Below are positions 1 through 16,931 of a stretch of 23,332 bases of DNA, one piece after another. Positions within the stretch are counted from its first letter, which is position 1, and every line of letters starts with the position of its first letter. The DNA comes from a virus. Below the pieces are notes generated by a model. It was not told the origin of the DNA. It worked only from the letters and a program-made list of their open reading frames with translations, and made no database searches. Both the position numbers and the translations under genes were made by a program. The DNA lies in the IMG/VR virus record IMGVR_UViG_3300037094_000084, positions 1-23,332 of that record; one strand, written 5' to 3'.

Positions 1-285
1 AGCAATCCAATACCAGCAACTTGCCCACTGTGAAATAGCGTTAGGGCAGGCCGGGCAAAATGCCTGAACATTCGTTGAAGCTGCGCCGCACGATGAGGGG
101 CTTAAATTTCCATACCCTACAGAAAAATATAGTGTTGTGGCCGTTGTACTTGCGTATGTTACCGACAGGAAGCCTACCGAATTAAGAACCGGCTGTCCTA
201 CAGGGGATACACCGTTTAAAGAATAAGCGCTGGCCATTGTTGAAAATATTAAAAATAAAAATGAAAAAGAGATTCGTTTTATCAT
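1..285 (-). CDS. exported cysteine-containing protein, C-terminus beyond window edge
   Basis: Reading from an ATG at 285, the frame stays open for 95 codons to the left edge, so the gene is cut by the window. The N-terminus MIKRISFSFLFLIFSTMASA has a short basic start, a long hydrophobic core and a small-residue ASA end, which is a textbook Sec signal peptide with likely cleavage near residue 20. The mature part is Ser/Thr/Gly-rich with four Cys in the last 35 visible residues (SSCGAAS, FCPACPN, ASCWYW), consistent with disulphides outside the cytoplasm. Its ATG overlaps the TGA of the upstream exported gene (ATGA), so translation is probably coupled; I see no strong Shine-Dalgarno of its own. 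I recognise no family. It is the fourth signal-peptide gene in a row. Confidence 0.65.
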   Translation of the reverse strand, partial: MIKRISFSFLFLIFSTMASAYSLNGVSPVGQPVLNSVGFLSVTYASTTATTLYFSVGYGNLSPSSCGAASTNVQAFCPACPNAISQWASCWYWIA

Positions 286-1163
286 TGTGGATTTAACACA
301 GTGCTAGGAAATGAATTTGTTTTAGATAACCAAATAGCGGACCATGTGACAGCCGATGCTCGAACCGGTGGAATAATAACGACAGGCTGATTGCTTTTTG
401 TGTCTGTTACTTGGATTATAACTCCACCACCCGGTTGGAGTTCCCAATTATTGACAATGGTAGTGGAACCCTGAATAACATTTAAAAATCCAATAGATGT
501 TCCGCAATTATTCGCAAGCAAAACACCCTCATTATACCTCCCTACCCCATAGCCGCCCACTGGGGTTGGAATAATATATGGAGTTGGTGTATTGGTGAAT
601 GTAGCGGCAACCGGCGGAATAATAAATCCAGACATGGCAATAGAATTAGAAGTCGGAGTAGGCGTCACAGTAGGCGTCACGGTGGGCGTGTAGGAACTGA
701 TCGGGGTTAATGTCGGTGTATAGGTGTAGCTTGGTGCGATAATAATCGATGCCCCCTCATTCAACCAGACTGCCACCGTGCTAGGACCTATACCGGTGAC
801 ACTCACGCTCCCGGACATTAACTGTGTTGTCGGCACAATCTGCGGGGTAAAATTTCCAACATTAATTGTATTTCCATTAATATTTGTCCACGGCGTAGGC
901 GTCACAGTAGGCGTCACGGTGGGCGTGTAGGAACTGATCGGGGTTGAGGTTATCGTGGGGGTAGGGGTGGGGGTCGGGGTCCATGGTCCCGCACCGATAG
1001 CGAGTGAAACACCGGAATCAGTTACCGGCATCGGGATAGGAACAGTCGGAGCCACACAAGGAACGAGATAACTTTTCCCGAAACTGTCCGTTGAGTAACA
1101 GGGTCCTGAAATCTGCCCAAAAGCCGGTAAAGCAAGTATTAAAAGTAGCAATAAACTTTTCAT
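282..1163 (-). CDS. exported protein with Thr-Pro-rich linkers
   Basis: This 293-residue protein starts with the signal peptide MKSLLLLLILALPAFG, probably cleaved before QISG. The mature protein alternates ordered segments with two low-complexity TPT linkers (about residues 62-91 and 149-172), each containing the same ISSYTPTVTPTVTPTP block. The ordered segments (about 93-145 and 173-293) are rich in Val, Gly, Ser and Asn and look like beta-sandwich or fibre domains; I recognise no family. The start is well supported: GGAGG lies 5 nt before the ATG, and the ATG overlaps the TGA of the preceding gene. The linkers are encoded by a 51-nt exact direct repeat. The protein is probably exported or surface-associated; its function is unknown. 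Confidence 0.75.
   Translation of the reverse strand: MKSLLLLLILALPAFGQISGPCYSTDSFGKSYLVPCVAPTVPIPMPVTDSGVSLAIGAGPWTPTPTPTPTITSTPISSYTPTVTPTVTPTPWTNINGNTINVGNFTPQIVPTTQLMSGSVSVTGIGPSTVAVWLNEGASIIIAPSYTYTPTLTPISSYTPTVTPTVTPTPTSNSIAMSGFIIPPVAATFTNTPTPYIIPTPVGGYGVGRYNEGVLLANNCGTSIGFLNVIQGSTTIVNNWELQPGGGVIIQVTDTKSNQPVVIIPPVRASAVTWSAIWLSKTNSFPSTVLNPQ
658..945. repeat. 51-bp exact direct repeat encoding a TPT linker
   Basis: Positions 658-708 and 895-945 are identical over 51 bp, with starts 237 bp apart. Both lie in the same frame of the exported protein gene and encode the ISSYTPTVTPTVTPTP linker. Perfect nucleotide identity, rather than only amino-acid similarity, indicates recent duplication or gene conversion. 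Confidence 0.9.
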
Positions 1164-1372
1164 TTCACCCTCCGAACAGTCGGCGTCATTGTTGGTTTGC
1201 CTTCCAGTTGAAGAAGACTGTTTTCAACCTTCCACGAAGAAATAGCCCTCACATGGTACATTTTTTCCATCTTGGTCCTCCATTTTGATTTCGGGGTAGG
1301 AGTTGCGGTCTGCCCAAATACCCAATTAAAAACCAAGAAAGCCATAGCCAAAAGCAGGAATAATTTTTTCAT
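1160..1372 (-). CDS. small exported protein
   Basis: This 70-residue protein begins MKKLFLLLAMAFLVFNWVFG, a classic signal peptide with likely cleavage near residue 20, followed by QTATPTP, a short version of the TPT linker found in its neighbours. The remaining 45 residues are basic and unrecognised. The start is firmly supported: a perfect GGAGG sits 7 nt before the ATG, and the gene begins one base after the stop of the preceding exported glycosidase-like gene. Its end overlaps the next gene by ATGA. The C-terminal codons (VRRVK) double as the ribosome-binding site of the next gene. It could be a small lipoprotein-like or secreted factor, but there is no lipobox Cys. Confidence 0.65.
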   Translation of the reverse strand: MKKLFLLLAMAFLVFNWVFGQTATPTPKSKWRTKMEKMYHVRAISSWKVENSLLQLEGKPTMTPTVRRVK

Positions 1373-1373
1373 C

Positions 1374-3572
1374 TCAAAACCTCCACGATTGATTATTAAA
1401 CGGAACGGATTTCACCACTACCGCATGATAACCCGGGACCGTCACGGTGATGTTGTCTACTGTTGGGCCACCATTAACATGGTATGGGTTCAGGTTATAG
1501 AGTGCGTTGTAATAGCCCCACACATCGGTGATAAGCCATGTGTCCACGGGTTGCGCTGGCCTCGGAGGAATAATCTGGCTCATGTTCACGGTCATCGTTG
1601 TTGGTGAAGAAGTGCCGTTTAAAAAAGCAATCGCTCTATTAAGGCTCGGTAACCCTTTGGCTTGATCGATTGGATCATAAAGAATTTTCGAGTAAACGGT
1701 GCATCCTGCCGAGGTCGATGTGACCGGAGTACACATGGAGTTAAGCGGATCGAACCATATTTCATCCAGGGCTGAATTTCGAAGCATATCCAATTGTGTC
1801 ACCGACATCTGAAAGGGCAGGGCATAATTGAATTTCGGAGTTCCCAACATTGCCTTCATCGATGCCACGGCCTCCGATTGCGTGTCGGTGAAAATTCCTT
1901 GGGTTGAATTAGGTGGTCCTCCAATCCATGCGTCGCAGTCGTCGGCGATATGGGATATTCCGGCCCAGGGTTGGAATGCCAAACAGGACGGCAGAGTATT
2001 AAGAAATGAATATACGACTGAATTCCATGTCCCGGTTGAATCCGCTCCTGTTCGCGTGGCATTCCCAAAGACTAATCCGCATGGCCTCTGTAGCTCGTCG
2101 TGGACGAGTATCGCCAAAGGTCTACCACTAGAATTATTGTTTGCGGCATTTATAAAAGTTTCAACTTCAGCATAAGTTGGCCCACCCGGGCCCGTGTCAA
2201 GCATAACCCCATCAACTCCCTGGAGGGCCGCCCAATTCATCAATTCCTGTTCAGCCCCAGTGACACATTCTGGATTCGATGCTATCGTTGCATTTGATGA
2301 AAAATAAAGGCTGAATTTTAAATTTCTGGCATGGCAATAGGAAATGGGGACAGACAAACCTTGAGGATAATTAGTGAAGTTGGCGGCAATAGATACGCCT
2401 GAAACGAACGTCCCGCCTTCGCCCCAAAGATCGTCATCATGAATCCAACTCATACCGTATTTCGGCAAACCAGTCGTGACCATCGAATCAGCAATGGACT
2501 CAATGAATGTTGCGGAATTGGCATAGGTTGGGCTTGTGGCTGGTTCGGTTGATCCCCATGTGCTAATCCTTCCAAAATCCTTTGGGGTATATAGAGCATA
2601 TTTCGAAAGAGGATTCGGCTGATAGGTCGGGGAGGGTAATGGGGTGTAGGTGGCTGTGGGCCCACCTGGGGTTTGTGTTGGCTTAGGAAAGCTCAACCCG
2701 ACATACGGTGGAATAACATTTGCATAAAAGCAAAATGGACCATAGGTAGGGCTGCCGTAGTTATTCCAAGCCAAACTGTAAGTGACTGGCAACGCGAGTG
2801 ATCCATACCCGCCACCAGTAAAATTGTATGCAATCATCGTTGACCCGGAGGAATTATTCAAACACCCGAGGTTAAGCCCGGACGATCCTTGTTCAACCAA
2901 CCAGAACCGCGTGTTTGCCGGAACGGTTAAAACTTGGGAGAGTGGAGCGGATACCCATCCACTAGAACCTACCAAAACATTACCAGTTGCGCCCAGAAGG
3001 TTATTGGGAAGATAAGCGTCACTATAGACGCCCATAGTAATAGTCCCAAGCGCTCCACCCGTCACATAGATGTTCAATTGAGTGATGGACATTGAATAGA
3101 CGGCGGTTTGGGGACACGCCCACAAATAATTTGCACTTACCTGCCCACTGGAAGAAGGCGTTTGGTTTCCGATAACAGATACCCAAACGGGAGTTGGCAC
3201 GAAGGTGAATGTGGGTGTAAAAGTGGATGTAGCCGTATTGGTTGGCGTTGGTGTGAAGGTCCGTGTAAAAGTGGATGTAGTCATATTGGTTGGCGTTGGT
3301 GTGAATGTGGGTGTAAAAGACGGCGTATTCGTATATCCATTCGTCACCGAAAACAAATACCATAACCCACTTTGGTTACTGTAACCGTACTCCGATACCG
3401 GTCCTGAATTTATGATCTGGCAATGTGTCCCGTCAGCCACATTGGTTAGCGCAAGCATGTCCGCATATGTCGTAACTCGGACGGTAGCCTGGGCATATCC
3501 AACCAATAATATGACGAACATCATGCTCATGCAGATTTGGAGTAAAATCCTTTTTAGGTTAGAAATGACCAT
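1374..3572 (-). CDS. exported multidomain protein with alpha-galactosidase (GH27)-like domain
   Basis: The frame is open to 3749, but the ATG at 3572 has AGGAG 7 nt upstream and starts a clear signal peptide (LKRILLQICMSMMFVILLVG, likely cleaved after AQA, residue 29), giving 732 residues. Domains: about 30-75, a small module resembling the preceding fibre protein; 80-128, TPT linkers; 130-288, a beta-sandwich lectin-like region; 290-320, a second Pro/Thr linker; 321-732, a glycoside-hydrolase-like region. The last resembles GH27 melibiases: TP near the start, WIHDDDLW (376-383), GLKFG-like NLKFSLY, GVDGVMLDTG with D459 as candidate nucleophile, ISHIADDCDAW with D544/D545 as candidate acid/base, and a C-terminal beta domain ending ITVTVPGYHAVVVK. 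Family knowledge predicts removal of terminal alpha-galactosyl residues. The assignment is by motif reading only; sequence is divergent, so another TIM-barrel glycosidase is possible. Confidence 0.7.
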   Translation of the reverse strand: MVISNLKRILLQICMSMMFVILLVGYAQATVRVTTYADMLALTNVADGTHCQIINSGPVSEYGYSNQSGLWYLFSVTNGYTNTPSFTPTFTPTPTNMTTSTFTRTFTPTPTNTATSTFTPTFTFVPTPVWVSVIGNQTPSSSGQVSANYLWACPQTAVYSMSITQLNIYVTGGALGTITMGVYSDAYLPNNLLGATGNVLVGSSGWVSAPLSQVLTVPANTRFWLVEQGSSGLNLGCLNNSSGSTMIAYNFTGGGYGSLALPVTYSLAWNNYGSPTYGPFCFYANVIPPYVGLSFPKPTQTPGGPTATYTPLPSPTYQPNPLSKYALYTPKDFGRISTWGSTEPATSPTYANSATFIESIADSMVTTGLPKYGMSWIHDDDLWGEGGTFVSGVSIAANFTNYPQGLSVPISYCHARNLKFSLYFSSNATIASNPECVTGAEQELMNWAALQGVDGVMLDTGPGGPTYAEVETFINAANNNSSGRPLAILVHDELQRPCGLVFGNATRTGADSTGTWNSVVYSFLNTLPSCLAFQPWAGISHIADDCDAWIGGPPNSTQGIFTDTQSEAVASMKAMLGTPKFNYALPFQMSVTQLDMLRNSALDEIWFDPLNSMCTPVTSTSAGCTVYSKILYDPIDQAKGLPSLNRAIAFLNGTSSPTTMTVNMSQIIPPRPAQPVDTWLITDVWGYYNALYNLNPYHVNGGPTVDNITVTVPGYHAVVVKSVPFNNQSWRF
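3204..3322. repeat. 48-bp tandem repeats encoding TPT linker
   Basis: Near-identical units with a 48-bp period (for example the shared ggttggcgttggtgtgaa starting at 3240 and 3288) encode 16-residue TPTPTN-TSTFT-TF units in the exported glycosidase-like gene. Period 48 keeps the frame. This is a protein linker repeat, not a CRISPR array. Confidence 0.8.
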
Positions 3573-3856
3573 GCTCCAGCTCCTGTTCCACCAAGATAGA
3601 CACCGATTTGATTCGTATCCGTAGCGAATCCAAAATCCCCCAACTGGCAGCCAGCCAGGTTTGTGGCCGTCATCAAAACCATCTGAGCGGTAGTGGCCAG
3701 GAACCGTCCTTGGTTTCTCCACAATGAATTTAAAGCATCCCAGCGCCAATGATACCCGGTATCAGCCGTATAAGCCACATCCCCACCTACCAGGCCTGTT
3801 TTTGTCAGTAAGTCCGCATAGCTGGTCGCAGTGTATGTGTAGACTCGCGTTGTCAT
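3554..3856 (-). CDS. small tail-fibre module protein
   Basis: This is a 100-residue protein starting MTTRVYTYTATSYADLL. It has two short motifs of a kind common in phage tail-fibre and spike proteins: GGDVAYTADTGYHWRWD followed by SLWRNQG, and GDFGFATDTNQIGVYLGG. These usually form small beta modules attached to virion fibres. There is no signal peptide. Its ATG overlaps the TGA of the cold-shock gene (ATGA), and its last 19 nt overlap the start of the exported glycosidase-like gene. The first motif recurs in that neighbour after the signal peptide (TTYADMLALT, GLWYLF), suggesting module duplication. It is probably a tail-tip or fibre accessory protein; function inferred from position and motif style. 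Confidence 0.6.
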   Translation of the reverse strand: MTTRVYTYTATSYADLLTKTGLVGGDVAYTADTGYHWRWDALNSLWRNQGRFLATTAQMVLMTATNLAGCQLGDFGFATDTNQIGVYLGGTGAGAWSFLT

Positions 3857-4056
3857 AATTTTCTCACGTTAATGGCCATCCATCCTTTTTCGGTATTTTC
3901 CGGTTCAAACTCCACTTTTTCCCCAGTCTGTAAAACCTTGAATCCATCCATTTGGATGTTTTCAAAGTGGATAAAGAAGTCTTTGCCAGTTCCATCTTCG
4001 GTAATGAAGCCATAGCCTTTATCCTGTCGAAACCACTTGCAAGAACCTGTGGGCAT
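3853..4056 (-). CDS. csp: cold-shock domain protein
   Basis: This 67-residue protein has the usual CspA-family length and both nucleic-acid-binding motifs: RNP1-like KGYGFI (residues 13-18) and RNP2-like DFFIHF (26-31), preceded by CKWFRQD and followed by GEKVEFEPENTEKGWMAINV. Members bind single-stranded RNA or DNA and act as RNA chaperones or antiterminators. The start is supported by AGGA 7 nt before the ATG. It lies between two tail-fibre-type genes, 9 nt after one and overlapping the next by ATGA, so it should be made late with the virion proteins. The family call is secure; why a late tail operon carries it is unknown. Confidence 0.93.
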   Translation of the reverse strand: MPTGSCKWFRQDKGYGFITEDGTGKDFFIHFENIQMDGFKVLQTGEKVEFEPENTEKGWMAINVRKL

Positions 4057-4065
4057 TTAACTATC

Positions 4066-5037
4066 CTATAACAAAGTGTAGTAAAGCCTGTACCACTGTC
4101 CGTTTAATCCCACTAGCTCAAAACAAGAGGCGGCCTCGTTCACGGCGAAGGATGCTACTGCCTCCTCGCCGTCCTGAGAGTAAAAAAATACGGCAGGCGT
4201 AACGTTGGCTCCTGGACCGGAATTAATAAACAATATCCTTTTCCCAGAACCTATTTTCGGAAGGGCCACGTATACCGGACCTGCGCCCCCTCCACTAAAG
4301 CTAGTCGTATAGTATATCCCGCAAGAACCCGGCATGTGGATAGGACTGTCCAAGGAGCCAAGAGGGGCGCTTAGGACCGTATAGGAGTCGGTCTTTGGAA
4401 AAGTGGGGTCGATTTGCTGAAATTTGAGATCATCAATCCAGAAACTACCTGCCACTGCGCTACCCGGAACACCCCCTGTTATTAAAACGCCATAAAAAAC
4501 AGCATCGCTTGGGGGCATTTGGAAAAGGGTGTTGTCCCCATCTGGAGACGCGATACAGCCCTCAGCAAACGTCCAAGTAGATGGATTCCCAGTGGCCTGG
4601 ACCCAAATCACGGATTTCGGCGTAGAACAGGCCGTCCCATCTTTTTTGAACCAAAGGATTTCAATTTTATTAGACATCGTAGGGGCGCTGGATTTGTACC
4701 AAAAAGAAACGTAAAGCCCCTGGCCAGGGTTGTAGGGGATTTCAGTCTGAGATTGAAGGAATCCGCCACCGGCCACTCCACCTGTAGCAAAATAAAATGA
4801 ATTCGTCCCACTGGCAGATGTGCTGTTGTCCACTCCCCCAGTGCCCCCGGGATAGGGTGTGAACTCCCAACCGTCTGGGACAGTCCCGGAGGACACCTGT
4901 TCAAAATTAGAGTTGCCAGGGGAAAGGATGTTTCCAATAACGGAGTTAAGGTATTGAATCCATTGCCGTACAAGGATAGCCCAAGTCAGTCGGGTCGCTG
5001 TTTTTGGTAAAGGATCAACTATGGTTACAGGAGGCAA
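4066..5037 (-). CDS. carbohydrate-binding tail fibre/receptor-binding-type protein
   Basis: This 323-residue protein uses a TTG start (MPPVTIV), with AAAGG about 9 nt upstream. After a short N-terminal helix (about 15-40) comes a region typical of CBM4/9-like beta-sandwich modules: GNSNFEQVSSGTVPDGWEF (about 42-60), then SGTNSFYFATGG, YNPGQGLYVSFWYKSS and a closing SFWIDDLKF near residue 200. Such domains bind polysaccharides. The C-terminal third (about 210-323) is a Gly-rich beta region ending in NGQWYRLYYTLL, a common ending for phage fibre domains. It follows the tail hub gene and has no signal peptide, so it is best read as a virion host-binding protein. Ligand unknown. Confidence 0.68.
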   Translation of the reverse strand: MPPVTIVDPLPKTATRLTWAILVRQWIQYLNSVIGNILSPGNSNFEQVSSGTVPDGWEFTPYPGGTGGVDNSTSASGTNSFYFATGGVAGGGFLQSQTEIPYNPGQGLYVSFWYKSSAPTMSNKIEILWFKKDGTACSTPKSVIWVQATGNPSTWTFAEGCIASPDGDNTLFQMPPSDAVFYGVLITGGVPGSAVAGSFWIDDLKFQQIDPTFPKTDSYTVLSAPLGSLDSPIHMPGSCGIYYTTSFSGGGAGPVYVALPKIGSGKRILFINSGPGANVTPAVFFYSQDGEEAVASFAVNEAASCFELVGLNGQWYRLYYTLL

Positions 5038-5059
5038 TTAGAGAGTCCTTTCAAACCAG

Positions 5060-5101
5060 CTGAAACAAAACGGATACTGGCTAAAACCAAACGGACACCA
5101 G
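5060..5101. repeat. 21-bp imperfect tandem duplication across the hub stop codon
   Basis: Positions 5060-5080 and 5081-5101 match at 16 of 21 bases. The right unit contains the last codons and the TAG stop of the tail hub gene; the left unit lies just after it and would encode a similar VSV-F peptide in the same frame if the stop were read through. Confidence 0.55.
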
Positions 5102-7153
5102 CTCACTATCCGGGTCGGCACTGTCAACAAACCCATTGTCATCAGACCACCATCCACAATTTTGAATGGCCCAGGCCTTAATGGCTGGATCCCAGGCATC
5201 ATTCCAGTCTAGGGAACCTGTCCCATAGCCAGCCAAGTTAGCGAACCTGACCGGTATGCCTTCTTCCCCGGACGTGAACCCGTCCTCCTCAACCCAAAAA
5301 CCCGTTTTGTTGCTGAAGTTATGAAGATTGGATAAAGTGACCTCCACGCCGGTCCCGCCGTAACTGCCCACGTTTGATCCAGCAGAACTGGCCGCAGAGC
5401 CCTTATCCACTTCTACAATTTCAAATATATCATCCAGATTGTGCCTTGCATATTGTATATGAATCTGGTTGGTAGGTAAAAGCAAAAGAGCGGACCAGGG
5501 GAGGTTTATGGTGTATATTCCAGGCTTCTGCCCAAGGAACACCAGATTTCGAGTGGCCCAATACTCCGCATCCTGATCGTTGGACACCCCGATGTTTTGA
5601 GGTCCAACACTTGTGAGGGAGGGTTGGTTTTTTGAATATTGCGTGGCCACTTTATCCACGACCAAGGTTTCCCCCCACTTATCCTGAGTCCTTGTGGCAT
5701 AGTTTATGGTGACTTCACTTTGACATTGGAGGTTCGGCTTTACTTCCGAAAAATCAAGGATGGAAAGATCATCGAATAGTGGCAACCCCTCTCCAGCCAG
5801 GGGGACGAAAACCACATAGTTGAATAGGCCGTTGGCGTCTACAAATAAGTATGATCCAACCACCTGGTTAATTATTTGGGCCACTGCGGCCAGTGTTTGT
5901 GTTGTGTTCAGGAAAAGGGACGGCACCAACATGCTTTGTTCTGTGGCCGGGGTTGTACCGCCAATAACCAGATTTTGTCTGGAGGTGCTGAATGATCCTG
6001 TATTAACTTCCGTTTGACCGCATTGGGCCAGCAGGTCCAACATCATGTCCGAAGCATTGCTCATCCAGGAACCGTCCGCATTCGGCTTCCCATGAAAGTC
6101 CACACTTACAGCAGATTGCCCGTCCCAGCCAGGGAGAAGAAATTCACCGGCAGATAAATACTCCGCTCCAACGGATATCGTGTCCCATGTCGTGGCCGCG
6201 TTGGTCCGAACCTCATCAATGGAAAATATCGCGTGGTCAGCAACTTTAAATCTATTGGTGCCAACATCGATGCAAACAGCAGGAGCCCCATAAATTAATC
6301 CGTAGGCCCAAGGAACAGGGGTTCCAATAGCTGAGTCCTGGGAGTTCATGCCCGGATATAGGTCGGTGGAGTAGATGTTTTGTGGAAAATTTTGAGTAAG
6401 TTGTTGCTTCGTTTCCAAATTGTTCATGATGAACTGCTGGTTCGTTTTTTGCCAGTTGTCGTTGAGCCAGGTGCCGACACGCTCATAGTCAGCGTAGTCC
6501 ATGAACTGACCCAAGGCCGGATTGTCCGCCCCGAGGAGGATAACGGTCTGTCCCCCGTCCCAGTCCAGGTCCGTGTAGGAATCAAAAAACCCATGAAGCG
6601 TTTCGTCCGGGGAATTATCAAAGGTGGTCGTCCCACCGGCTAGTTGACCCACTCCGGAAAAGTCTTGCTCCACACGAAGAGATATTCCGGGGACCGTCAC
6701 TAAGACAGGGTGGTAAAAAATTCCGTTGAATATCTTGTCCCCATGGTCAGCCAGGTAGAAAGTCAACTCCAAAGTAACCGTATTGGCGTCCTGCCTGGGG
6801 TCCGCCCCAGCGGCCAGGTTGATGTAGACATTCACCTGATCCCAATAATACGAGTTGGGCATACCTACAACAGCTTCGGGGCTGTGCACTAAGGTTAGTG
6901 GAGTCTCATTGAAGTTAGCCCCTGTCACAAACGCTTCCCCATCAAAGGGGAAGGGGGTCCAATATACCCAACCTGTTTCAATCGGCCCTAATGTGTCCCC
7001 AGAATCATCCACCAGGAAATTACCGGCATCGTCCAACAATCCACTGGCCAGATCCGTATAGTTCCAAAACTTGACTGTACTTAGCGCGGAGATTTCAACC
7101 AAGTAGACAGATTGGAGGTCTGTGGAATTATAAAGAACAGCCGACAAACTCAC
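5081..7153 (-). CDS. tail hub / tip protein
   Basis: This 690-residue protein follows the distal-tail-like gene, the position of the central hub in siphovirus tails. The GTG start overlaps the upstream TGA (GTGA) with AGGA 6 nt before it. The N-terminal 160 residues are beta-rich (SLSAVLYNSTDLQSVYLVEI, FNETPLTLVHSP). The middle has segments typical of hub proteins that track surface shape: NIYSTDLYPG, GTPVPWAYG (about 280-290) and an IIN..VGSYLFVDANGLFNYV stretch (about 435-455). Many short DDAGN/DDSGD acidic turns occur near both ends. The C-terminus is Trp-rich and ends LVSVWF. I see no peptidase or lysozyme motif. The role is inferred mainly from gene order and style; exact family not identified. 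Confidence 0.65.
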   Translation of the reverse strand: MSLSAVLYNSTDLQSVYLVEISALSTVKFWNYTDLASGLLDDAGNFLVDDSGDTLGPIETGWVYWTPFPFDGEAFVTGANFNETPLTLVHSPEAVVGMPNSYYWDQVNVYINLAAGADPRQDANTVTLELTFYLADHGDKIFNGIFYHPVLVTVPGISLRVEQDFSGVGQLAGGTTTFDNSPDETLHGFFDSYTDLDWDGGQTVILLGADNPALGQFMDYADYERVGTWLNDNWQKTNQQFIMNNLETKQQLTQNFPQNIYSTDLYPGMNSQDSAIGTPVPWAYGLIYGAPAVCIDVGTNRFKVADHAIFSIDEVRTNAATTWDTISVGAEYLSAGEFLLPGWDGQSAVSVDFHGKPNADGSWMSNASDMMLDLLAQCGQTEVNTGSFSTSRQNLVIGGTTPATEQSMLVPSLFLNTTQTLAAVAQIINQVVGSYLFVDANGLFNYVVFVPLAGEGLPLFDDLSILDFSEVKPNLQCQSEVTINYATRTQDKWGETLVVDKVATQYSKNQPSLTSVGPQNIGVSNDQDAEYWATRNLVFLGQKPGIYTINLPWSALLLLPTNQIHIQYARHNLDDIFEIVEVDKGSAASSAGSNVGSYGGTGVEVTLSNLHNFSNKTGFWVEEDGFTSGEEGIPVRFANLAGYGTGSLDWNDAWDPAIKAWAIQNCGWWSDDNGFVDSADPDSELVSVWF

Positions 7154-8007
7154 AGCTGTTCCTCAAACGTGTATGCGACTACCCAATAGGTCTGTGTGGG
7201 GGACACCACGGAGGTTTGCTTTTTATGTGAGGCCTCCAGCTTCACGTAGTAAATTTCTTGGTATGGGTCAACCTGATCGATCTGAAGAAAGAAGTTTCTG
7301 TTCTGGCCTATTATGGCAAAGATATAGTCCAGTTGATTAATCACATTTTGGGCCATGGGGGGAAAAGTCAGGGTTATTTGTTTAAATTGTGGCAGCACTT
7401 CCACAAAAGTCTGAAGGCCCACACCTTTGGATTTATTGGACCCATCAATTAGCTCGATTAAAATACCATTAAAGGCTGGTGCCTGGGGGATGTCGTAAGT
7501 TTGGCCAAGGAATATCCTGCCCACATCCCGCGTTTGGCTGGCTGCTGATTTGTAGTATTTGAATTGCCAATAGCGATAGGTCGGGGCCCCCGGAGTTGTT
7601 TCAAAATACCCCTCGAAATATTGGTGGGGGGACTGAGCATCCGTTATGGAACTTTGATTCAGGGTTTGGGAAAATGGAGGCGAGGACCATGAGTTGACTG
7701 AATTCCCGGCAACGGTCACGGGCCCGTCCCCCCAATCGCCGCTGGTAAAGCCTGTGGTATCCCCGCTGGTCATCGACCCCTCGTTGAGGGTTGTAAAGAA
7801 AGCTATGAAGGCGTCTACCGAAACAGGTGCCCCAAAATCTATAGTCAGGGTTTCCGCGCCTAACGTGTTCCCACTCCTCCAAACACGGCTGCGGAACTGG
7901 GTTTGAACGTTGGAGGCCGGAAGCATTTGGGCATAGGAACTGGGGACCAGGGAAGAGGCTGGTAAAGCGTCAAAGGTCCGGTTGTCCCAGAATAGGCGCA
8001 CAGCCAT
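7150..8007 (-). CDS. distal tail-like protein with discoidin-type N-terminal region
   Basis: This 285-residue protein lies directly after the tape measure, sharing one base with its stop (TAATG). Residues 1-160 look like a jelly-roll or discoidin-type domain: LFWDNRTFDALPASSLVPSS, SRVWRSGNTLGAETLTIDFG and a YRYWQFKYYKS strand. The C-terminal half has LIELIDGSNKSKGVG, QITLTFPPMAQNVINQLDYI and QNRNFFLQIDQ, resembling the belt part of distal tail proteins that ring the tail tip. It probably joins the tube end to the hub encoded next. Assignment rests on position plus overall style. Confidence 0.6.
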   Translation of the reverse strand: MAVRLFWDNRTFDALPASSLVPSSYAQMLPASNVQTQFRSRVWRSGNTLGAETLTIDFGAPVSVDAFIAFFTTLNEGSMTSGDTTGFTSGDWGDGPVTVAGNSVNSWSSPPFSQTLNQSSITDAQSPHQYFEGYFETTPGAPTYRYWQFKYYKSAASQTRDVGRIFLGQTYDIPQAPAFNGILIELIDGSNKSKGVGLQTFVEVLPQFKQITLTFPPMAQNVINQLDYIFAIIGQNRNFFLQIDQVDPYQEIYYVKLEASHKKQTSVVSPTQTYWVVAYTFEEQL

Positions 8008-10073
8008 TAGGAGTTCACCGATTGAGCCCTGACCGCGCTAGGGTGGATAACCACCCTTCCTTCCCGGGAAGCCTTGGATACCGATTTCAATATTGGCCTA
8101 GAGTCCAGATAAACGGCAACTTGGAATGTCGGGGAACCTGAAGAACCTGATCCGGAGGCGGTTGGATCAGAGCCTCCTGCGCTAGAAGGCGCTCCACCCC
8201 CAGCGCTGGGTTGGACCCCTACGCCCATTTTTCCATTACTGAGCCTAGTTACAGGCAAAATAACCTCTGGACCGGCTTCACCTACGGTGACCGCTGTGGC
8301 TTGGTCAAACACTCCCCCGTTGGCCATAGCAGGCATACCCAACGCGGACACTGCCGCAATCAGCCCCACAATAAGGGGAATAGCCAACAAGGGATTGGCA
8401 TCCAAAAAAGAAAAGGCCTTGGCTATGTCTAACTGAACCTCTAGGTACTTTATTCCCCACTGAACCACGGAGTCCAACATGCCTGAGAGAGCTTTACTTG
8501 TGATACTTCTCCAGTCAGCCGCACCCGTGGTCAAGGAATCCGTAACTCCTTTAACCATGTCATTCATCGCGGTGTTCATGCCCTCAAACAAGGTTTGCCC
8601 AAACTGTTGTATCTTATTGAACGCCTCAACCCAAGTTTCCTCTATCTGCTGGGATGTTCCGGCGTTATTTTGTGTCTGCTTTTTAAGCTCATCTTTTTGA
8701 TATGTCGTAAGCCCTGCCCACCACGTTTGAATGCTTCCTATCGCCCCACCGGCCACAGATTTTATGTTGTCGTAAGCAGTTTGAGCCCATCCGGCCATGT
8801 CGTTAAAACTTTTACCGATGTCCACAGAGGAGTTCATTGAGTTAGCCATGTTTGTCTGCATGTCTTTGGACGCTTTTTGAACGGACATACTAAGTTGATT
8901 AATGGCCATCATGGAAGAGTCCCCGAGCCCGGGGATGTGGGATAAAACCTTTTCTATGGCGATTCCAAAACTAAGGACACCTACTTGCAGTGCGTCCCAA
9001 AGATACAGCCCCAGGCTTTTTATCGATTCCCAATTATCATAAAGTAGTTTTCCAACAACCACTACTCCAGCAACAGCGGCAATCCAAGGTAACAGTGGGA
9101 AAATCATATCTATAAAACTAGCCGCGAGAGTCATCGCCCCTTTTATAAGCGGCCCAAATATATTTAGCAGTGCGCCCCCAGCAGCAGACATCAGCTTCCA
9201 AGCCCCTATCGCTGGGCCTATTGCTCCCAATAGTGCTCCTAATCCAACGATAACGTCCTTATTGGTGTCTGACAGCCCTTTAAACCACGTCATAACATCC
9301 CGTACCACGTTGTCCAAAGCATTGAGGGCTGGCACTAACATGCTCATGATCGTGCCGCCCAAAGGATCAAGGGCGTCTTTCATGTCAGTGAAGTCTCGCT
9401 TCATCTGATTTGCAGGTAACTCAGCCATCGCTTCTGCCGATTTCCCATAAACCTTGTTTAAATTACCCATGATAATAGCTTGGGCATCCCCGATTTTTCC
9501 CATGGCCATGTCATTTTCTATTACTTGCCTCTGAGCCGGAGAAATGCTGGCCATCGACAGGCGTAAAAGATTAAAAGCCCTAGTTGGGTTCTCCAGGGCC
9601 GCTCCTATTTTTTGGCTGGCTTCTGCCAACGATGTCTTGGACTCCATCGCAAACCCGACAGCATCATTAGCCGCATCCTTAAACGTGTCTCCTGAGATGT
9701 ATTGGAATTTCAGTAGGGAGTCTATGACCCCCTGCATAATGTCCGTCTTGCCCATACCAGATATGACGTTTAAATTCGAGGCCATCACAGTGAGTTCTTT
9801 AGAAGAGAAACCAGATGCATCCCCGGTGCCTTGTATCTCCGCGTTCATTTGAGCAACGGCCTGGGTGCCAGCGTTGAAAGATTCAACTGCCGTGTCGGCC
9901 AGAAAAGTTAGAGGAACAGTTATTCCAGCGTCTAAGGCCAATCCTGTGCTTTTAAAACTATCCGCCATGGAGGATGTTGCTTTGACAGTAGCTTGTTGCG
10001 CGGAAGACATAGCGGCAGTGTATCCGGAAGCGTCTCCTGTTATTTTTGCCGAAATGTCATCTATCGTGCTCAT
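8007..10073 (-). CDS. tail tape measure protein
   Basis: This 688-residue protein has the usual tape-measure architecture. A helical N-terminus (ISAKITGDASGYTAAMSSAQ) is followed by a region with ASNLNVISGMGKTDIMQGVI (about 107-126). Hydrophobic segments follow at about 270-345 (GLGALLGAIGPAIGAW; LLPWIAAVAGVVVVGKLLYD) and again near 560-580 (LLAIPLIVGLIAAVSALGM). The end carries the conserved-type motif GGVFDQATAVTVGEAGPEVILPV in two adjoining parts (about 587-609). Tape measures set tail length and help DNA entry; at roughly 1.5 angstrom per residue this length implies a tail near 100 nm. The ATG overlaps the stop of the -1 chaperone frame, and it precedes the tail-tip genes as expected. Confidence 0.93.
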   Translation of the reverse strand: MSTIDDISAKITGDASGYTAAMSSAQQATVKATSSMADSFKSTGLALDAGITVPLTFLADTAVESFNAGTQAVAQMNAEIQGTGDASGFSSKELTVMASNLNVISGMGKTDIMQGVIDSLLKFQYISGDTFKDAANDAVGFAMESKTSLAEASQKIGAALENPTRAFNLLRLSMASISPAQRQVIENDMAMGKIGDAQAIIMGNLNKVYGKSAEAMAELPANQMKRDFTDMKDALDPLGGTIMSMLVPALNALDNVVRDVMTWFKGLSDTNKDVIVGLGALLGAIGPAIGAWKLMSAAGGALLNIFGPLIKGAMTLAASFIDMIFPLLPWIAAVAGVVVVGKLLYDNWESIKSLGLYLWDALQVGVLSFGIAIEKVLSHIPGLGDSSMMAINQLSMSVQKASKDMQTNMANSMNSSVDIGKSFNDMAGWAQTAYDNIKSVAGGAIGSIQTWWAGLTTYQKDELKKQTQNNAGTSQQIEETWVEAFNKIQQFGQTLFEGMNTAMNDMVKGVTDSLTTGAADWRSITSKALSGMLDSVVQWGIKYLEVQLDIAKAFSFLDANPLLAIPLIVGLIAAVSALGMPAMANGGVFDQATAVTVGEAGPEVILPVTRLSNGKMGVGVQPSAGGGAPSSAGGSDPTASGSGSSGSPTFQVAVYLDSRPILKSVSKASREGRVVIHPSAVRAQSVNS

Positions 10074-10297
10074 TTTTTATCCGGATACCTTTCCATAAGG
10101 TCAAACAATTCATCCGGCGAAGGAGGAGGAATAGGCTTCTCTATGTTGTTGGCCTCCTGCCACCCCTCAAGAGCACTGTAAAACTCTGTAACCGTTGAGG
10201 ACCAAAACTCGGAACGGGACCAGCCTAAAACTCCCATTCCAACTTGCATCCACCTTCGCCAAGGAAGATCGGTTACGGCGTCCCCTTGGCTCCTTCG
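10070..10297 (-). CDS. tail assembly chaperone, -1 frameshift extension (rcc01693/TAC_6-like)
   Basis: This is the second half of the chaperone pair, read in the -1 frame. It contains the hallmark of the GTA rcc01693-type chaperones: LPWRRWMQVGMGVLGWSRSE followed by FW, and an acidic, Pro-rich tail ending DLMERYPDKK. The domain begins before the only possible internal ATG (10249) and overlaps the end of the upstream frame. That ATG has AAGG only 3 nt away, so independent initiation is poor. A slippery GGGAAAC at 10297-10303 lets ribosomes shift -1 and add 75 residues, for a predicted 191-residue fusion, as with lambda G/GT. The stop overlaps the tape-measure ATG. If shifting failed, a 59-residue protein from 10249 is the alternative. 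Confidence 0.78.
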   Translation of the reverse strand, partial: RRSQGDAVTDLPWRRWMQVGMGVLGWSRSEFWSSTVTEFYSALEGWQEANNIEKPIPPPSPDELFDLMERYPDKK

Positions 10298-10303
10298 TTT
10301 CCC
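10258..10303 (-). promoter_or_regulatory. programmed -1 ribosomal frameshift signal
   Basis: On the minus strand, a canonical X-XXY-YYZ heptamer GGGAAAC (10297-10303) is in the correct zero frame (GAG GGA AAC). It is followed by a 6-nt spacer (10291-10296) and a perfect 7-bp stem, GCCAAGG (10284-10290) with CCTTGGC (10258-10264), enclosing a 19-nt loop. The zero-frame stop lies in that loop. Geometry matches known phage tail-chaperone signals such as lambda GGGAAAG. Confidence 0.82.
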
Positions 10304-10644
10304 TCGTCTTCTTTCAAGGACTCCTGGCCTGACAAGGCCACGCCTATGAATTTACCGAGCATAGCCAGTCCACTCAACGTCCCATGCTTGACCAGCAACT
10401 TTCCGAGCCCGTTGTAACTCAACTTTGGCTCAGACTGGGCGATGTAGATCATTCGCGCCACTTCTTCCATAGTGAAGGAAGGCCGCTCTTGCCGGAACTC
10501 ATTTGAAATTTGGATGAAGGATCGTTTTAGGGTTGACTCCATGTTTGCGATATTCTCAAACGATGGAACCAGAACAAATTCCCTGTCCCCAATTTTTCCC
10601 TTAACTTCCCCCCGGGCCTCGTTAGCTGCTCCTGGTGTTTCCAC
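10273..10644 (-). CDS. tail assembly chaperone (gpG-like, GTA gp10/TAC_11-like)
   Basis: This 123-residue protein starts at GTG with AGGAGG 5 nt upstream. The motif GEVKGKIGDREFVLVPSFEN (about 12-31) followed by a helical region (NIANMESTLKRSF; TMEEVARMIYIAQSE; GLGKLLVKHG) fits the GTA-gp10-type chaperone family, whose members keep the tape measure soluble during tail assembly. The C-terminus is charged (ESLKEDEGNEGAKGTP), and here lies the slippery site that switches some ribosomes into the -1 frame. It sits between the tube genes and the tape measure, exactly where this pair belongs. Confidence 0.8.
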   Translation of the reverse strand: METPGAANEARGEVKGKIGDREFVLVPSFENIANMESTLKRSFIQISNEFRQERPSFTMEEVARMIYIAQSEPKLSYNGLGKLLVKHGTLSGLAMLGKFIGVALSGQESLKEDEGNEGAKGTP

Positions 10645-10677
10645 TACCGCCTCCTGTTAATTTGTTGAACCTACCTT

Positions 10678-11106
10678 TTAGATGTGAGGCGTCAAAACCA
10701 CCGGGCCGCTGGATTCCAGCGTCATGGAGTATTCCTGGGCCCCGTTATAGTTTCCGGTGTACTCGAATTTGGAAACCAAGAACGAGCCAGTGATAGTGTC
10801 TCCATCTTCAGCGGTCAACTGAAAATTGGCCATGGCCCCATTTATGGAGAACCCACGGACATAGTTTTCCCCAACTGAATCCTTGAATATTCCAGATCCG
10901 GAAATGGACAAGGACCGATCCCCCGTATTGGCCAGGAGAGTTTTCCAGGGCGCTTCGTCCTTCGTGGTGATGTCCACCACAGCGTTTGCAATGGACGCGG
11001 TAGCGGCCCGAAGACCTCCCACCGATGTGTAATCTGCCGGGGACACACCATCTGTCACCTTCAAAAGAAATAACCGGCCTTTAGATGCTCCGTAAGGGGT
11101 TGGCAT
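10678..11106 (-). CDS. major tail tube protein, copy 2
   Basis: This 142-residue protein has the layout of TP901-1/HK97-type tube proteins: GRLFLLKVTDG at the start, VDITTKDEAPWKTLLANTGD, the SGSGIFKDSVGENYVR core, and the C-terminal strand pair GSFLVSKFEYTGNYNGAQEY with SMTLESSGPV. The family stacks as rings to form the tail tube. It is a paralogue of the gene immediately upstream, sharing the order G-R-FLL, ITTK/ITSTKS, SGIFK/TGVFK, F.VS..EY.G..(D/N)GA.-Y..TLESSG. A very strong AGGAGG lies 6 nt before its ATG, suggesting heavy translation. Which copy is the main tube subunit cannot be told from sequence. Confidence 0.83.
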   Translation of the reverse strand: MPTPYGASKGRLFLLKVTDGVSPADYTSVGGLRAATASIANAVVDITTKDEAPWKTLLANTGDRSLSISGSGIFKDSVGENYVRGFSINGAMANFQLTAEDGDTITGSFLVSKFEYTGNYNGAQEYSMTLESSGPVVLTPHI

Positions 11107-11122
11107 TCACATCCTCCTAAGA

Positions 11123-11545
11123 TTATGCGCTACCGGGCCAATCTGGTCCGGACATCGTACCTGATGACTCAAGTGTTATGTTGTAAAGCAACGCTCCATC
11201 GTGAGCCCCATTGTACTCTAAATTGGACACTATGAACAAGCCGGAAAAGTTCTCCCCGGACTCCTCAAAAATGACCCTACAAAGGTGCAAAGTATGGGAA
11301 AAAGACCACACCTCCACTGTCTGTTGCCCTAGATCATTCTTAAAGACCCCTGTGCCAGTGAGAGTGATAGTTTGGTTACCACAGTCAGCCAAGATTTCAC
11401 GCCACCCCGCGCTTTTTGTGCTAGTAATGGGGACAATTGTGTTCCCTATCTTTATCCCCGTGGTCTGGAGGCCCATGACCGAGATATAGTAGCCCTGGGT
11501 ATTTACCTGGAGAAGGAAGTTCCTGCCTAGACGAATGCCGCTCAT
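11123..11545 (-). CDS. tail tube protein, copy 1
   Basis: This 140-residue protein has the tube-protein signature GRNFLLQVNTQGYYISVMGL, PITSTKSAGWREILADCGNQ, LTGTGVFKNDLGQQ and the ending FSGLFIVSNLEYNGAHDGAL followed by LYNITLESSGTMSGP. It aligns along its length with the next gene, so the two are tandem paralogues. GAGG lies 6 nt before the ATG. Possible roles are a second ring type within one tube, or a tube-initiation or tail-terminal variant. It has a His/Cys patch (FSHTLHLCRV) absent in the second copy. Confidence 0.82.
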   Translation of the reverse strand: MSGIRLGRNFLLQVNTQGYYISVMGLQTTGIKIGNTIVPITSTKSAGWREILADCGNQTITLTGTGVFKNDLGQQTVEVWSFSHTLHLCRVIFEESGENFSGLFIVSNLEYNGAHDGALLYNITLESSGTMSGPDWPGSA

Positions 11546-11584
11546 TTAAAACCTCGCCCTTAAATTAAAATACAACTAGCGGTA

Positions 11585-11746
11585 TCAGCGTTCCAACCAT
11601 TTCCCATCTTGTTCCTGTAAAACGAGTCCTTGGTTCTTTCCACCCTCGGAAAAATAAACCGAATGGATGAGCAGTTGACCAGCACTAAGCGCAACACACG
11701 GGAGCCAATCTATCGACCGTCCATAATCACCCGTGCTGTCAAACAT
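11585..11746 (-). CDS. small hypothetical protein between tail terminator and tube genes
   Basis: This is an uninterrupted 53-codon frame from the ATG at 11746 to TGA at 11585, filling most of the 212-nt gap between two tail genes. The product (MFDSTGDYGRSIDWLPCVAL..., ending GLVLQEQDGKWLER) has balanced composition and alternating polar and hydrophobic residues like a small beta domain. It could start at TTG 11761, which overlaps the upstream stop, giving 58 residues. The ribosome site is weak, so coupling to the previous gene is likely. Position fits a small tail accessory; no family recognised. Confidence 0.5.
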   Translation of the reverse strand: MFDSTGDYGRSIDWLPCVALSAGQLLIHSVYFSEGGKNQGLVLQEQDGKWLER

Positions 11747-11757
11747 GGATTTACCAA

Positions 11758-12201
11758 TCAAGGTGCTGGGATATCAAAGCCCGGTTCGTAAGTCATCAGA
11801 ACAGAAAAATTCAAAACCAATTCGTCCCGATTATTTGAGTCTTTCCCCATTGGCAAGGGACCAGCTGTTTTAGAGTAAACGTAGATGTATTTGTTTCCGC
11901 CCGGGATAACCGGCTCGTTTTGGTGCAGACCGTTAAATATTTTTTGGGCCTGCGCCCGAAGAGGAGCGTAAGCATTGGTTGATCCGCGTAACCGGACCTG
12001 GAGGCCTACGGCCATAGCTGGTTCTTCCCCAATATTTGGGTCGCGGACGATGTCCGGGGCTTCCCCGGGAGTCTCAAACAGGGCCACCACTTGGTCCGGT
12101 TCAGGGGGCAAAAACCCCTCAGACACAGCCCATCCGGTGGATCCGCCCACAAGACTCTGCGCTACTAGCCAATTGTTTATGTCATCCAAGAAAATCGACA
12201 T
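11758..12201 (-). CDS. tail terminator-type protein (minor capsid/DUF3168-like)
   Basis: This 147-residue protein lies where the tail terminator is found in lambda/SPP1-type phages, after the tail-completion protein and before the tube. Features include MSIFLDDINNWLVAQ at the start, VALFETPGEAPDIV (about 39-52), VGLQVRLRGS (about 66-75), YAPLRAQAQKIFNGLHQ and a late strand DELVLNFSVLMTYEPG. This pattern (short helical start, FETPG, QVR.RG, late N-F-V-Y strand) is typical of the phage minor-capsid/tail-terminator family. The family caps the finished tail for joining to heads. Its stop and the next start are separated by the small ORF. Confidence 0.72.
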   Translation of the reverse strand: MSIFLDDINNWLVAQSLVGGSTGWAVSEGFLPPEPDQVVALFETPGEAPDIVRDPNIGEEPAMAVGLQVRLRGSTNAYAPLRAQAQKIFNGLHQNEPVIPGGNKYIYVYSKTAGPLPMGKDSNNRDELVLNFSVLMTYEPGFDIPAP

Positions 12202-12629
12202 CAGTCAGGCAGCCTTTCTTGTATTCTTCCAGCCAATCTTTCAGACATGGAGGATTTGCGTTCATTCAGGGGAATCTCCAGAAATTTAGCGCCCCCGACT
12301 GGATGGTGCTTGGTTAAATCTTCGTGGACAGGAACGGCATAGCCCACAACCGAGGAATTTGTCTCCCCCTGATTACCTGATCCAGCAACGCCTCCAAACC
12401 CAAATTCCACAGAAACAGAATTCCCGTTTATTTCTGGAAGATTGACGTGGCCAGAACTAACTAGGAATCCGTGGAGCACCGGGGTTAAGGGTTTTGACGC
12501 CGCAATAATTTCCTCCCCCTCCATGAACAGAGCCGGGGCCACAGCCTTCAACATGTCCCTCGGCCTATTGGCCAGCTTGGATAAAAGTTTTTGAAGGCCT
12601 GCGTCCCAGGTTACTTTTAAGGTATCCAT
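12201..12629 (-). CDS. tail completion / HK97 gp10-like protein
   Basis: This 142-residue protein has a helical N-terminal half (WDAGLQKLLSKLANRPRDML; EGEEIIAASKPLTPVLHGFL) and the signature C-terminal segment YAVPVHEDLTKHHPVGGAKF followed by LEIPLNE (about 99-125), typical of HK97 gp10-like/minor-capsid proteins. These act at the head-tail joint. Its stop overlaps the next start by one base, and its start overlaps the head-closure stop by one base, so the three joining proteins form a tight coupled set. Confidence 0.8.
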   Translation of the reverse strand: MDTLKVTWDAGLQKLLSKLANRPRDMLKAVAPALFMEGEEIIAASKPLTPVLHGFLVSSGHVNLPEINGNSVSVEFGFGGVAGSGNQGETNSSVVGYAVPVHEDLTKHHPVGGAKFLEIPLNERKSSMSERLAGRIQERLPD

Positions 12630-12970
12630 CAGAGGAAGTACACAACTGCATGTGAAGGCCCCAGATCGTCCTGGAAAATTTCAACAGACGCAATCTGTGG
12701 ACTTTTCCCATCGCTCAGGATAACCCGGTCATCCGGAAGAACGTTTGGAAACGGCTCCCCCGACACCAAAGAAGGCCCTATCCAACAATGCGCGGAGGAC
12801 ACTACTTCTTGAGCATCACTTTTTCTAACGAGTTTGTTTTTCCGCACTAACCGGCAAGGGTATTCATGCCCCGTGGTGTATTGCGGATTCCCATAACTGT
12901 CCCTGCTTTGGAGAGAAAACCACTGACAGGTGTCCGTGAACATTTCCTGGAGGTCGTTGGTTATAGTCAT
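12629..12970 (-). CDS. head closure / head-tail adaptor protein
   Basis: This is a 113-residue beta-rich protein. DTCQWFSLQSRDSYGNPQY (about 13-31), the YPCRLVRK strand, then LPDDRVILSDG and the end motif DLGPSHAVVYF match the style of SPP1 gp16-like head-closure proteins, where a small barrel plugs the connector. It is the first joining gene after the sugar-enzyme cassette; in a standard order it would directly follow the connector at 16932-17393. Ribosome site is weak. Confidence 0.68.
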   Translation of the reverse strand: MTITNDLQEMFTDTCQWFSLQSRDSYGNPQYTTGHEYPCRLVRKNKLVRKSDAQEVVSSAHCWIGPSLVSGEPFPNVLPDDRVILSDGKSPQIASVEIFQDDLGPSHAVVYFL

Positions 12971-12980
12971 AGACTTTATT

Positions 12981-13778
12981 TTAGCTTATTTTTTTGATTA
13001 ATTCATCAACCTTGTCCAGGGTGAATTCCCTGTTAAATAGTGCAATGCTTTCCGGGTAATTAAGGCCAATACTGTATTGGTCCCCAGCGTGGGCTATGTC
13101 GTAGTCGTCCGGATAAAACGTAAGATTTGGTTTTTTAGAGAAGTACCAATTAGCGATACTCATGGAGGACGTGCACACCACCACCCCTGCCGCTCGATTA
13201 AACAATTTCACTGTCCCCGGAACACTCAATTTATCAATCAAGGACAAAACGCCTGGGTTGAACTCATATCCAATCTCTTTGGACGCGATATTTGGCCCAT
13301 ACCTCTGGAATGTCCTGCCCACCCCCACCACTTTAATCCCCTTCTCGATCAGATGGGCACAGATGCTTTCCAGTATAGGCCTGGGGAGATTTCGATATTC
13401 CCCTCCCGCAGAAGCAGAAATGGCCACAAAAGGAGTGCTTCCTAGCTCATCCAAAACAACCTTGTCCTGATCCGAAATATAAAATACTTCTTTCTTACGT
13501 TCAGCAACTGATGGAATGGTGTCATTCAAGGCTATACCGTTGAACGTTCGCGCCTGCTCCGCCTTACTTAATTCCCGCCACGGGTAGGACACCACGTGTA
13601 GCTGATCTTTTTTAGGGTGCCAGTTCCATATTTCATGGCAGAAAGGATTTGGAGAAACGATGTGAATATCACAGGTGTCCTCGGGTTTGAGGTTGTCCAG
13701 GGATATGTAAGAATCCTGCATCCGCATAGAAACAAAAACATCCCCTAGTCCACCCGCGTAACAAATGGAGTATTTCAT
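12981..13778 (-). CDS. GT9-like glycosyltransferase-type protein
   Basis: I place the start at the ATG at 13778, with AAAGGG 7 nt upstream, rather than the GTG two codons earlier; this gives 265 residues. The N-terminal MKYSICYAGGLGDVFVSMRM contains the G-G-L-GD motif (9-13) of heptosyltransferase-like GT-B enzymes. The middle has FVAISASAGGEYRNLP (about 117-132) and KGIKVVGVG (about 147-155), and the C-terminal half has AAGVVVCTSSMSIANWYFS (about 196-214), equivalent to the donor-site helix region. Family knowledge suggests transfer or recognition of sugar nucleotides; substrate unknown. It is last in a four-gene enzyme cassette. A non-catalytic relative cannot be excluded. Confidence 0.6.
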   Translation of the reverse strand: MKYSICYAGGLGDVFVSMRMQDSYISLDNLKPEDTCDIHIVSPNPFCHEIWNWHPKKDQLHVVSYPWRELSKAEQARTFNGIALNDTIPSVAERKKEVFYISDQDKVVLDELGSTPFVAISASAGGEYRNLPRPILESICAHLIEKGIKVVGVGRTFQRYGPNIASKEIGYEFNPGVLSLIDKLSVPGTVKLFNRAAGVVVCTSSMSIANWYFSKKPNLTFYPDDYDIAHAGDQYSIGLNYPESIALFNREFTLDKVDELIKKIS

Positions 13779-13780
13779 GG

Positions 13781-14410
13781 TCACACCCTTTCAAAAGCAA
13801 AAGTCTCTATGCCCTCACGCCCCAACTCAATTTCAAACAAGGAGTGCCCAATAAACATAAATCCAACCTTACCCATCCAGGACACAAATCCTTGTCTCGT
13901 CCAGTACCAACAATGTTCGCCTTTTTTAAAATGCTTGGATCGAATCACGTGTTCCCCGTCCTTAAAAATGGGCAGGCTGACAAATACGTATTTTGAGATA
14001 TTGTCCAGGATGGATGTCGGATTGTTTATGTGCTCCAAGGAATCCCAAAACGTGGCCGCAAAAAAAATTTTATTCGTGGGGTCTGCAAACACATTCCGTT
14101 CTGTCAGCCACTGAACCCCAAATGGATTTACATCAAACCCAACCGTATCTGGTCGCTGCTCCACAAAGCAGCCGGAGCCTATGCCTATATCCACCAGGGG
14201 GCCGTTACTGTAAAACTGCCTAACCCAGTCAACCCTCTTTGCTGTTAGTTTTTTACCCATTTCCGTGTCCCCAAGCTGGACATAGTTCTTAAAATAGTCT
14301 TTTCCGTAAATGCCTTCTTTGGGCGGAAAATATCCGATACCTTTTTCGGGAAGCCAGATGAATTCTTTTTCCAGCAGCTCCTGAAAATTCTTGTCTATTC
14401 CGCCGATCAT
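13781..14410 (-). CDS. SAM-dependent class I methyltransferase
   Basis: The ATG at 14410 overlaps the upstream TGA (ATGA) and has AAAGG 7 nt upstream, so I use it rather than an earlier in-frame codon, giving 209 residues. Motif I is LVDIGIGSG (72-80), the acidic loop after strand 2 is GFDVNP (91-96) and motif IV-like is FWDSLEHINNP (121-131), all standard for class I SAM binding (Methyltransf_23 type). The N-terminal 55 residues are aromatic and charged and may be a substrate cap; the C-terminal region has HCWYWTRQGF. Between two glycosyltransferase-like genes, a sugar or glycan methyltransferase is the natural inference; DNA methylation is less likely since DPPY/NPPY is absent. Confidence 0.8.
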   Translation of the reverse strand: MIGGIDKNFQELLEKEFIWLPEKGIGYFPPKEGIYGKDYFKNYVQLGDTEMGKKLTAKRVDWVRQFYSNGPLVDIGIGSGCFVEQRPDTVGFDVNPFGVQWLTERNVFADPTNKIFFAATFWDSLEHINNPTSILDNISKYVFVSLPIFKDGEHVIRSKHFKKGEHCWYWTRQGFVSWMGKVGFMFIGHSLFEIELGREGIETFAFERV

Positions 14411-16926: not shown

Positions 16927-16931
16927 GTTAA

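Follow-up and report, generated by a model that had tools for sequence, protein, structure and literature searches.

A run of four genes for predicted exported proteins beyond the tail genes of a phage: a possible exchangeable, surface-acting cassette

Four predicted exported genes after the tail genes of a late operon

The window analyzed here is a whole virus record of 23,332 bp, in which the minus strand carries all main genes and the head genes lie at the right end (Table 1). Read toward base 1, this strand runs from the capsid gene through those for the tape measure, tail-tip, 323-aa, cold-shock and 100-aa proteins to four consecutive genes predicted to encode exported proteins, the last of which is still open at the contig end. 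The capsid protein is nearest to those of Pseudomonas phage RSP and Rhizobium phages (~45%), and a genome scan with this protein for a host returned only a distant alphaproteobacterial locus. The 323-aa protein has weak similarity to a Cip1-like carbohydrate-binding jelly roll (E 0.04). Terminator-like and promoter-like sites show no excess in positions 1-13000, which is consistent with the exported genes and the tail genes forming one late operon; the cold-shock gene sits in the middle of it.

Table 1. Coordinates of the cassette and of other features of the window
Feature	Position	Strand	Evidence or remark
Exported protein 4 (predicted), at least 95 aa	1..285	minus	Signal peptide; runs off contig end; no Shine-Dalgarno-like motif
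Exported protein 3 (predicted), 293 aa	282..1163	minus	Signal peptide and two TPT blocks; C-terminal domain unknown
Exported protein 2 (predicted), 70 aa	1160..1372	minus	Signal peptide, then short basic TPT-bearing peptide
Exported protein 1 (predicted), 732 aa	1374..3572	minus	Signal-peptide rule and GH27-type domain match
Swap boundary	3558..3572	minus	Identity to L002 ends at 3558, 14 nt inside exported gene 1
100-aa protein, without signal peptide	3554..3856	minus	Identical in L002; adjoins exported gene upstream
Cold-shock-domain protein, 67 aa	3853..4056	minus	Identical in L002; just before 100-aa gene
Probable accessory tail protein, 323 aa	4066..5037	minus	96% identical in L002
Probable tail-tip protein, 690 aa	5081..7153	minus	99% identical in L002; upstream of cassette
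Tape measure protein	8007..10073	minus	Marks operon as tail module
Relic, 3' half of exported gene	11565..11759	minus	Intact as L002:2905-3243; directly before tail-tube gene
Major capsid protein	18170-19168	minus	PHROG major head protein match

The four genes begin with ATG at 3572, 1372, 1163 and 285, where a sequence-only reading had placed them, and are linked as that reading described, by a 1-nt gap (1374/1372) and by ATGA overlaps at 1163 and 285. The strong ribosome sites that it reported are present as Shine-Dalgarno-like motifs before three of the starts (AGGAG, GGAGG, GGAGG) and missing before start 285. Signal peptides were called by a rule of our own rather than SignalP: a positive n-region, an uncharged hydrophobic core, and small residues at -3/-1. 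Sec-type signal peptides were thereby found in all four cassette genes and in none of the other 24 genes of the window, which bears out the claim that all four products carry one. The rule is not specific to cleaved signals, and it flagged several inner-membrane proteins among 46 E. coli K-12 genes. A stricter form additionally excludes proteins with a later membrane segment; in a control set of 134 late-region genes, drawn from five phages whose capsid or glycosyltransferase gene is related, it picked out 4, none longer than 181 aa and all within the lysis region or beside it. A run of four, including proteins of 732 and 293 aa, is therefore well beyond the control background.

TPT triplets, likewise reported for three of the four proteins, number 6, 2, and 13 in these three, with none in the fourth and none in any other protein of the window. 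Cys is missing at the predicted cleavage sites of the exported proteins, which thus have no lipobox. The description of the run as a set of large glycan-type proteins holds for the 732-aa protein only, the others having 70, 293, and at least 95 aa. Neither the 70-aa nor the incomplete 95-aa protein matched a family, and the latter had no relative in viral contigs. Apart from L002, a related contig considered below, the searched viral contigs and phage genomes held no relatives of the exported proteins, the only further signals being two weak gut-phage matches (E 0.09 and 1). The contig ends inside the cassette, a search of viral contigs found none that overlaps it on the left, and the lysis genes are accordingly known only from L002.

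Several other genes of the window are of separate interest. A MuF-like head gene with KGGPGSG linkers occupies 21385-23235, the linker being encoded by exact 24-nt repeats (22398-22421 and 22929-22952); in the near-identical contig L003 (3033-5525, 858-2732), an extra HELGH metallopeptidase-like insert lies between the linkers, and the neighbor of the L003 gene carries a RelA_SpoT domain (PF04607, 3.4e-15). The exact linker repeats suggest that modular domains, possibly toxin-like, recombine here. Glycosyltransferase-like, methyltransferase, and MptE-like genes lie at 12981-16064, between the head and the tail genes, and the protein encoded at 14407-15393 shares 40-45% identity with proteins that D3-like Pseudomonas phages encode close to their head-tail genes. 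A GIY-YIG endonuclease with five NUMOD3 motifs, a probable homing endonuclease, lies between head genes (16075-16950).

A GH27-type domain in the largest exported protein

The signal peptide of exported protein 1 comprises residues 1-29, with predicted cleavage after MVISNLKRILLQICMSMMFVILLVGYAQA and before TV. It is followed by an N-terminal module of ~45 aa, a TPT linker, a domain of ~170 aa of unknown fold, a second Pro/Thr linker and, in the C-terminal part (~326-732), a GH27 alpha-galactosidase-type domain. This last domain matches the rice enzyme 1uas (E=2e-9) and 6f4c (E=1.2e-7) in the PDB and aligns to cellular GH27 across about 90% of its length; the match to Pfam Melibiase_2 (PF16499; E=0.0014) scores 18.5 bits, under the 23-bit curated cut-off. 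The two catalytic Asp residues of the rice enzyme, D130 and D185 (nucleophile and acid/base), align with D459 and D511. By similarity of the catalytic domain, we assign the domain to GH27. Alpha-galactosidase specificity does not appear to follow, hence the name GH27-type: the substrate-contacting K128 of the rice enzyme corresponds to Met457 and Cys132 to Gly, so that the K-Y-D-x-C substrate-site motif reads M-L-D-T-G. These two replacements leave the substrate specificity open, and it may differ, or activity may be lost. GH27 enzymes are mostly known to take off terminal sugars, not to cut chains.

An AlphaFold model of the 732-aa protein made without an alignment had a mean pLDDT of 34.7 and was confident only at the N-terminal helix, which we attribute to the small number of relatives. 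The N-terminal module has some likeness to the 100-aa protein encoded just upstream (permutation p about 0.003, uncorrected; BLASTP not significant, E=0.23), and homology between the two is only suggestive.

The cassette slot in a related phage

Contig L002 (14,583 bp) matches positions 3558-11759 of the window at 97.7% identity. Both L002 and L003 carry sample number 3300014838, which we take to be permafrost peat and on which we base the description of the window virus as a soil-type tailed phage. Past the boundary, which is marked by the 3' end of the 100-aa gene where it overlaps exported gene 1 by 19 nt, L002 continues with an unrelated gene of about 358 aa. Its product begins with another signal peptide (MVISDLRRLFLLGLLLLPWPVGA) and also carries a TPT linker as well as a repeat-rich domain with a match (1.2e-6) to a virion structural PHROG. 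Downstream of this gene lie genes for a small membrane protein, a spanin-like protein (weak match), an M15 endolysin (strong match), and membrane-associated proteins. The slot thus appears to lie, as in L002, between phage tail genes and phage lysis genes; in this comparison of two phages, its occupant appears to have been exchanged, with a change of sequence and domain, while an export signal was kept. Searching related contigs for the same cassette therefore recovered the slot with a different exported protein in it. The view that the exported run is not a standard tail module is strengthened by this swap at the same base and by the GH27-type domain.

A longer start for exported gene 1, TTG at 3749, was rejected because it reads the 100-aa gene out of frame. 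L002 has the same 100-aa protein although the DNA differs, which makes the frame of that protein the coding one, and the start at 3572 is favored.

Directly before its tail-tube gene, L002 has a second set, with one gene for a TPT protein and two for predicted exported proteins of 640 and 112 aa. The window lacks this second set apart from a relic, which keeps about 195 bp of the 112-aa gene, frameshifted and with its start lost. Exported protein 3 and the L002 TPT protein (L002:3-992) share a 41-aa segment (46% identity, pairwise E=2e-5). From the second set in L002 and the relic in the window, exported genes appear to be gained and lost at two sites of the late operon.

Proposed role, alternatives, and known systems

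We tentatively read these genes as an exchangeable cassette of Sec-exported late proteins that act on the cell surface or on the glycans around it. In the mechanism that we infer, from the export step through catalytic activity and target to the timing and the benefit, the proteins would be made late in infection with signal peptides, exit the cytoplasm through the Sec route, and work on the cell surface or its surroundings, separate from the assembly of virions in the cytoplasm. TPT stretches would serve as stalks joining an N-terminal part to an effector domain that varies between phages. For the window phage this would be the GH27 domain, trimming terminal alpha-linked galactose-type sugars off a surface glycan; in L002 it would be the repeat-rich, fiber-like binding domain, which would mask or bind the same surface. 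With the glycan altered or masked, progeny and competitors would be kept off the infected cell and its debris, or release would be easier. Export is likely, and a signal peptide kept through a full change of sequence and domain suggests that export itself is under selection; action outside the cell is probable, as proteins exported late would miss cytoplasmic assembly unless they meet virions after lysis, which makes it the simplest reading. A function in limiting re-adsorption or superinfection, or in easing release, seems most likely; the particular benefit to the phage is a guess. A job outside the cell was also the core of the sequence-only reading, and the GH27 domain and the L002 swap strengthen it; the clearing of surface polysaccharide suggested there is less apt, since an enzyme family that typically removes terminal sugars fits receptor alteration better than dissolving of a capsule.

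An exported GH27 enzyme would also be well placed to trim hemicellulose, and the genes might instead be auxiliary or lysogenic-conversion genes whose product breaks down plant polysaccharide, such as the side chains of galactomannan in peat, and thereby nourishes the host while it is infected or lysogenic. Precedents exist in the viral glycoside hydrolases of thawing permafrost peat, one of them an active endomannanase (PMC6786970), and in an active chitosanase encoded by a soil virus (PMC9485262). However, the corresponding slot in L002 holds a fiber-like exported protein that does not look enzymatic, so that the swap would go unexplained; small TPT proteins accompany the GH27 protein; and the genes lie in the late operon with no promoter signal of their own. 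We consider this reading unlikely, and a glycoside hydrolase in a soil virus need not be a nutrient-cycling gene. Exchange of a distal domain at a fixed point also recalls the evolution of tail fibers, and the products could be receptor-binding fibers or decorations that join virions only during or after lysis. The virion structural match of the L002 domain and the likeness between the N-terminal module and the 100-aa protein favor this, whereas the BLASTP result for that module does not, and by the criterion that tail fibers, assembled in the cytoplasm, carry no export signal, the cassette proteins fall outside the class. We are not aware of a tailed phage that builds its virions with Sec-exported fibers, and a literature search that covered few subscription papers found none described. 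The idea is improbable, and slightly more so in its general form, that this phage group makes its receptor- or glycan-binding fibers as Sec-exported proteins joining virions outside the cytoplasm; if true, it would amount to a separate assembly route for the host-range proteins of tailed phages.

Because our rule cannot surely tell membrane anchors from cleaved signals, the N-termini might also be uncleaved anchors of proteins acting in lysis or in membrane association, as the neighboring lysis genes of L002 would allow. Yet the hydrophobic cores are short, small residues stand at -3/-1 in all of them, large soluble-type domains follow, and similarity to holins or spanins is lacking, so we give this about as little credence as exported fibers. 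A left part that is host chromosome beyond an attachment site, or an assembly chimera, would fit with the contig ending within the cassette and with TPT-linked exported proteins being common in some bacteria. Against this, L002 carries an exported TPT gene starting from that very base, with the genes for the membrane protein, the spanin-like protein and the M15 endolysin behind it, and another part of the L002 late operon encodes a related TPT protein; for the slot we reject this reading, which is very improbable overall. Under the surface-acting cassette that we prefer, replacement of the main exported protein between near-identical phages with retention of export suggests strong diversifying selection of its own on action outside the cell, as for tail fibers, and the system allows one to ask directly whether a phage, late in infection, removes or masks the receptor that it uses itself.

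Among known systems, the cassette resembles the cor cassette and the O-antigen genes of phage D3 in position and logic, not by homology. In unrelated phages, the cor superinfection-exclusion cassette comes immediately after the tail-fiber genes, its presence follows the receptor used, and it is thought to stop progeny from adsorbing to debris (PMC13164509). Cor (T1, N15, HK022, phi80) and Llp of T5 are phage-encoded envelope proteins, and the position directly downstream of tail genes recurs here; as small lipoproteins, they block a receptor protein of the outer membrane, whereas the window encodes large TPT-linked proteins, one of them with a GH27-type domain, and no lipobox, and no homology of Cor or Llp to the cassette proteins was detected. 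D3-like Pseudomonas phages likewise have surface-modifying genes (O-antigen acetylase, Wzy) between tail genes and endolysin (PMG1) and share a glycosyltransferase-like gene with the window, but their conversion genes encode membrane enzymes of O-antigen synthesis rather than exported hydrolase- or fiber-type proteins. The rice GH27 enzyme (1uas) has the same catalytic domain by sequence, with both catalytic Asp residues aligned, but in the phage protein the domain follows a signal peptide, a module, and TPT linkers, and it carries Met and Gly in place of K128 and C132. The GH32 enzymes of Bacillus phages SP10 and phiNIT1 and the peat and soil viral enzymes are likewise phage-encoded glycoside hydrolases not directed at peptidoglycan; the GH32 enzymes lack a signal peptide (PMC4595243), whereas predicted export is built in here and common to four genes. 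Lambda lom, which neighbors the tail-tip gene in the late operon, also encodes a signal-peptide protein, but it is a single gene for a small outer-membrane barrel without a glycan domain. Known envelope-targeted late genes occur alone or in small groups (Cor, Llp, lom), whereas the window has a run of four predicted exported proteins.
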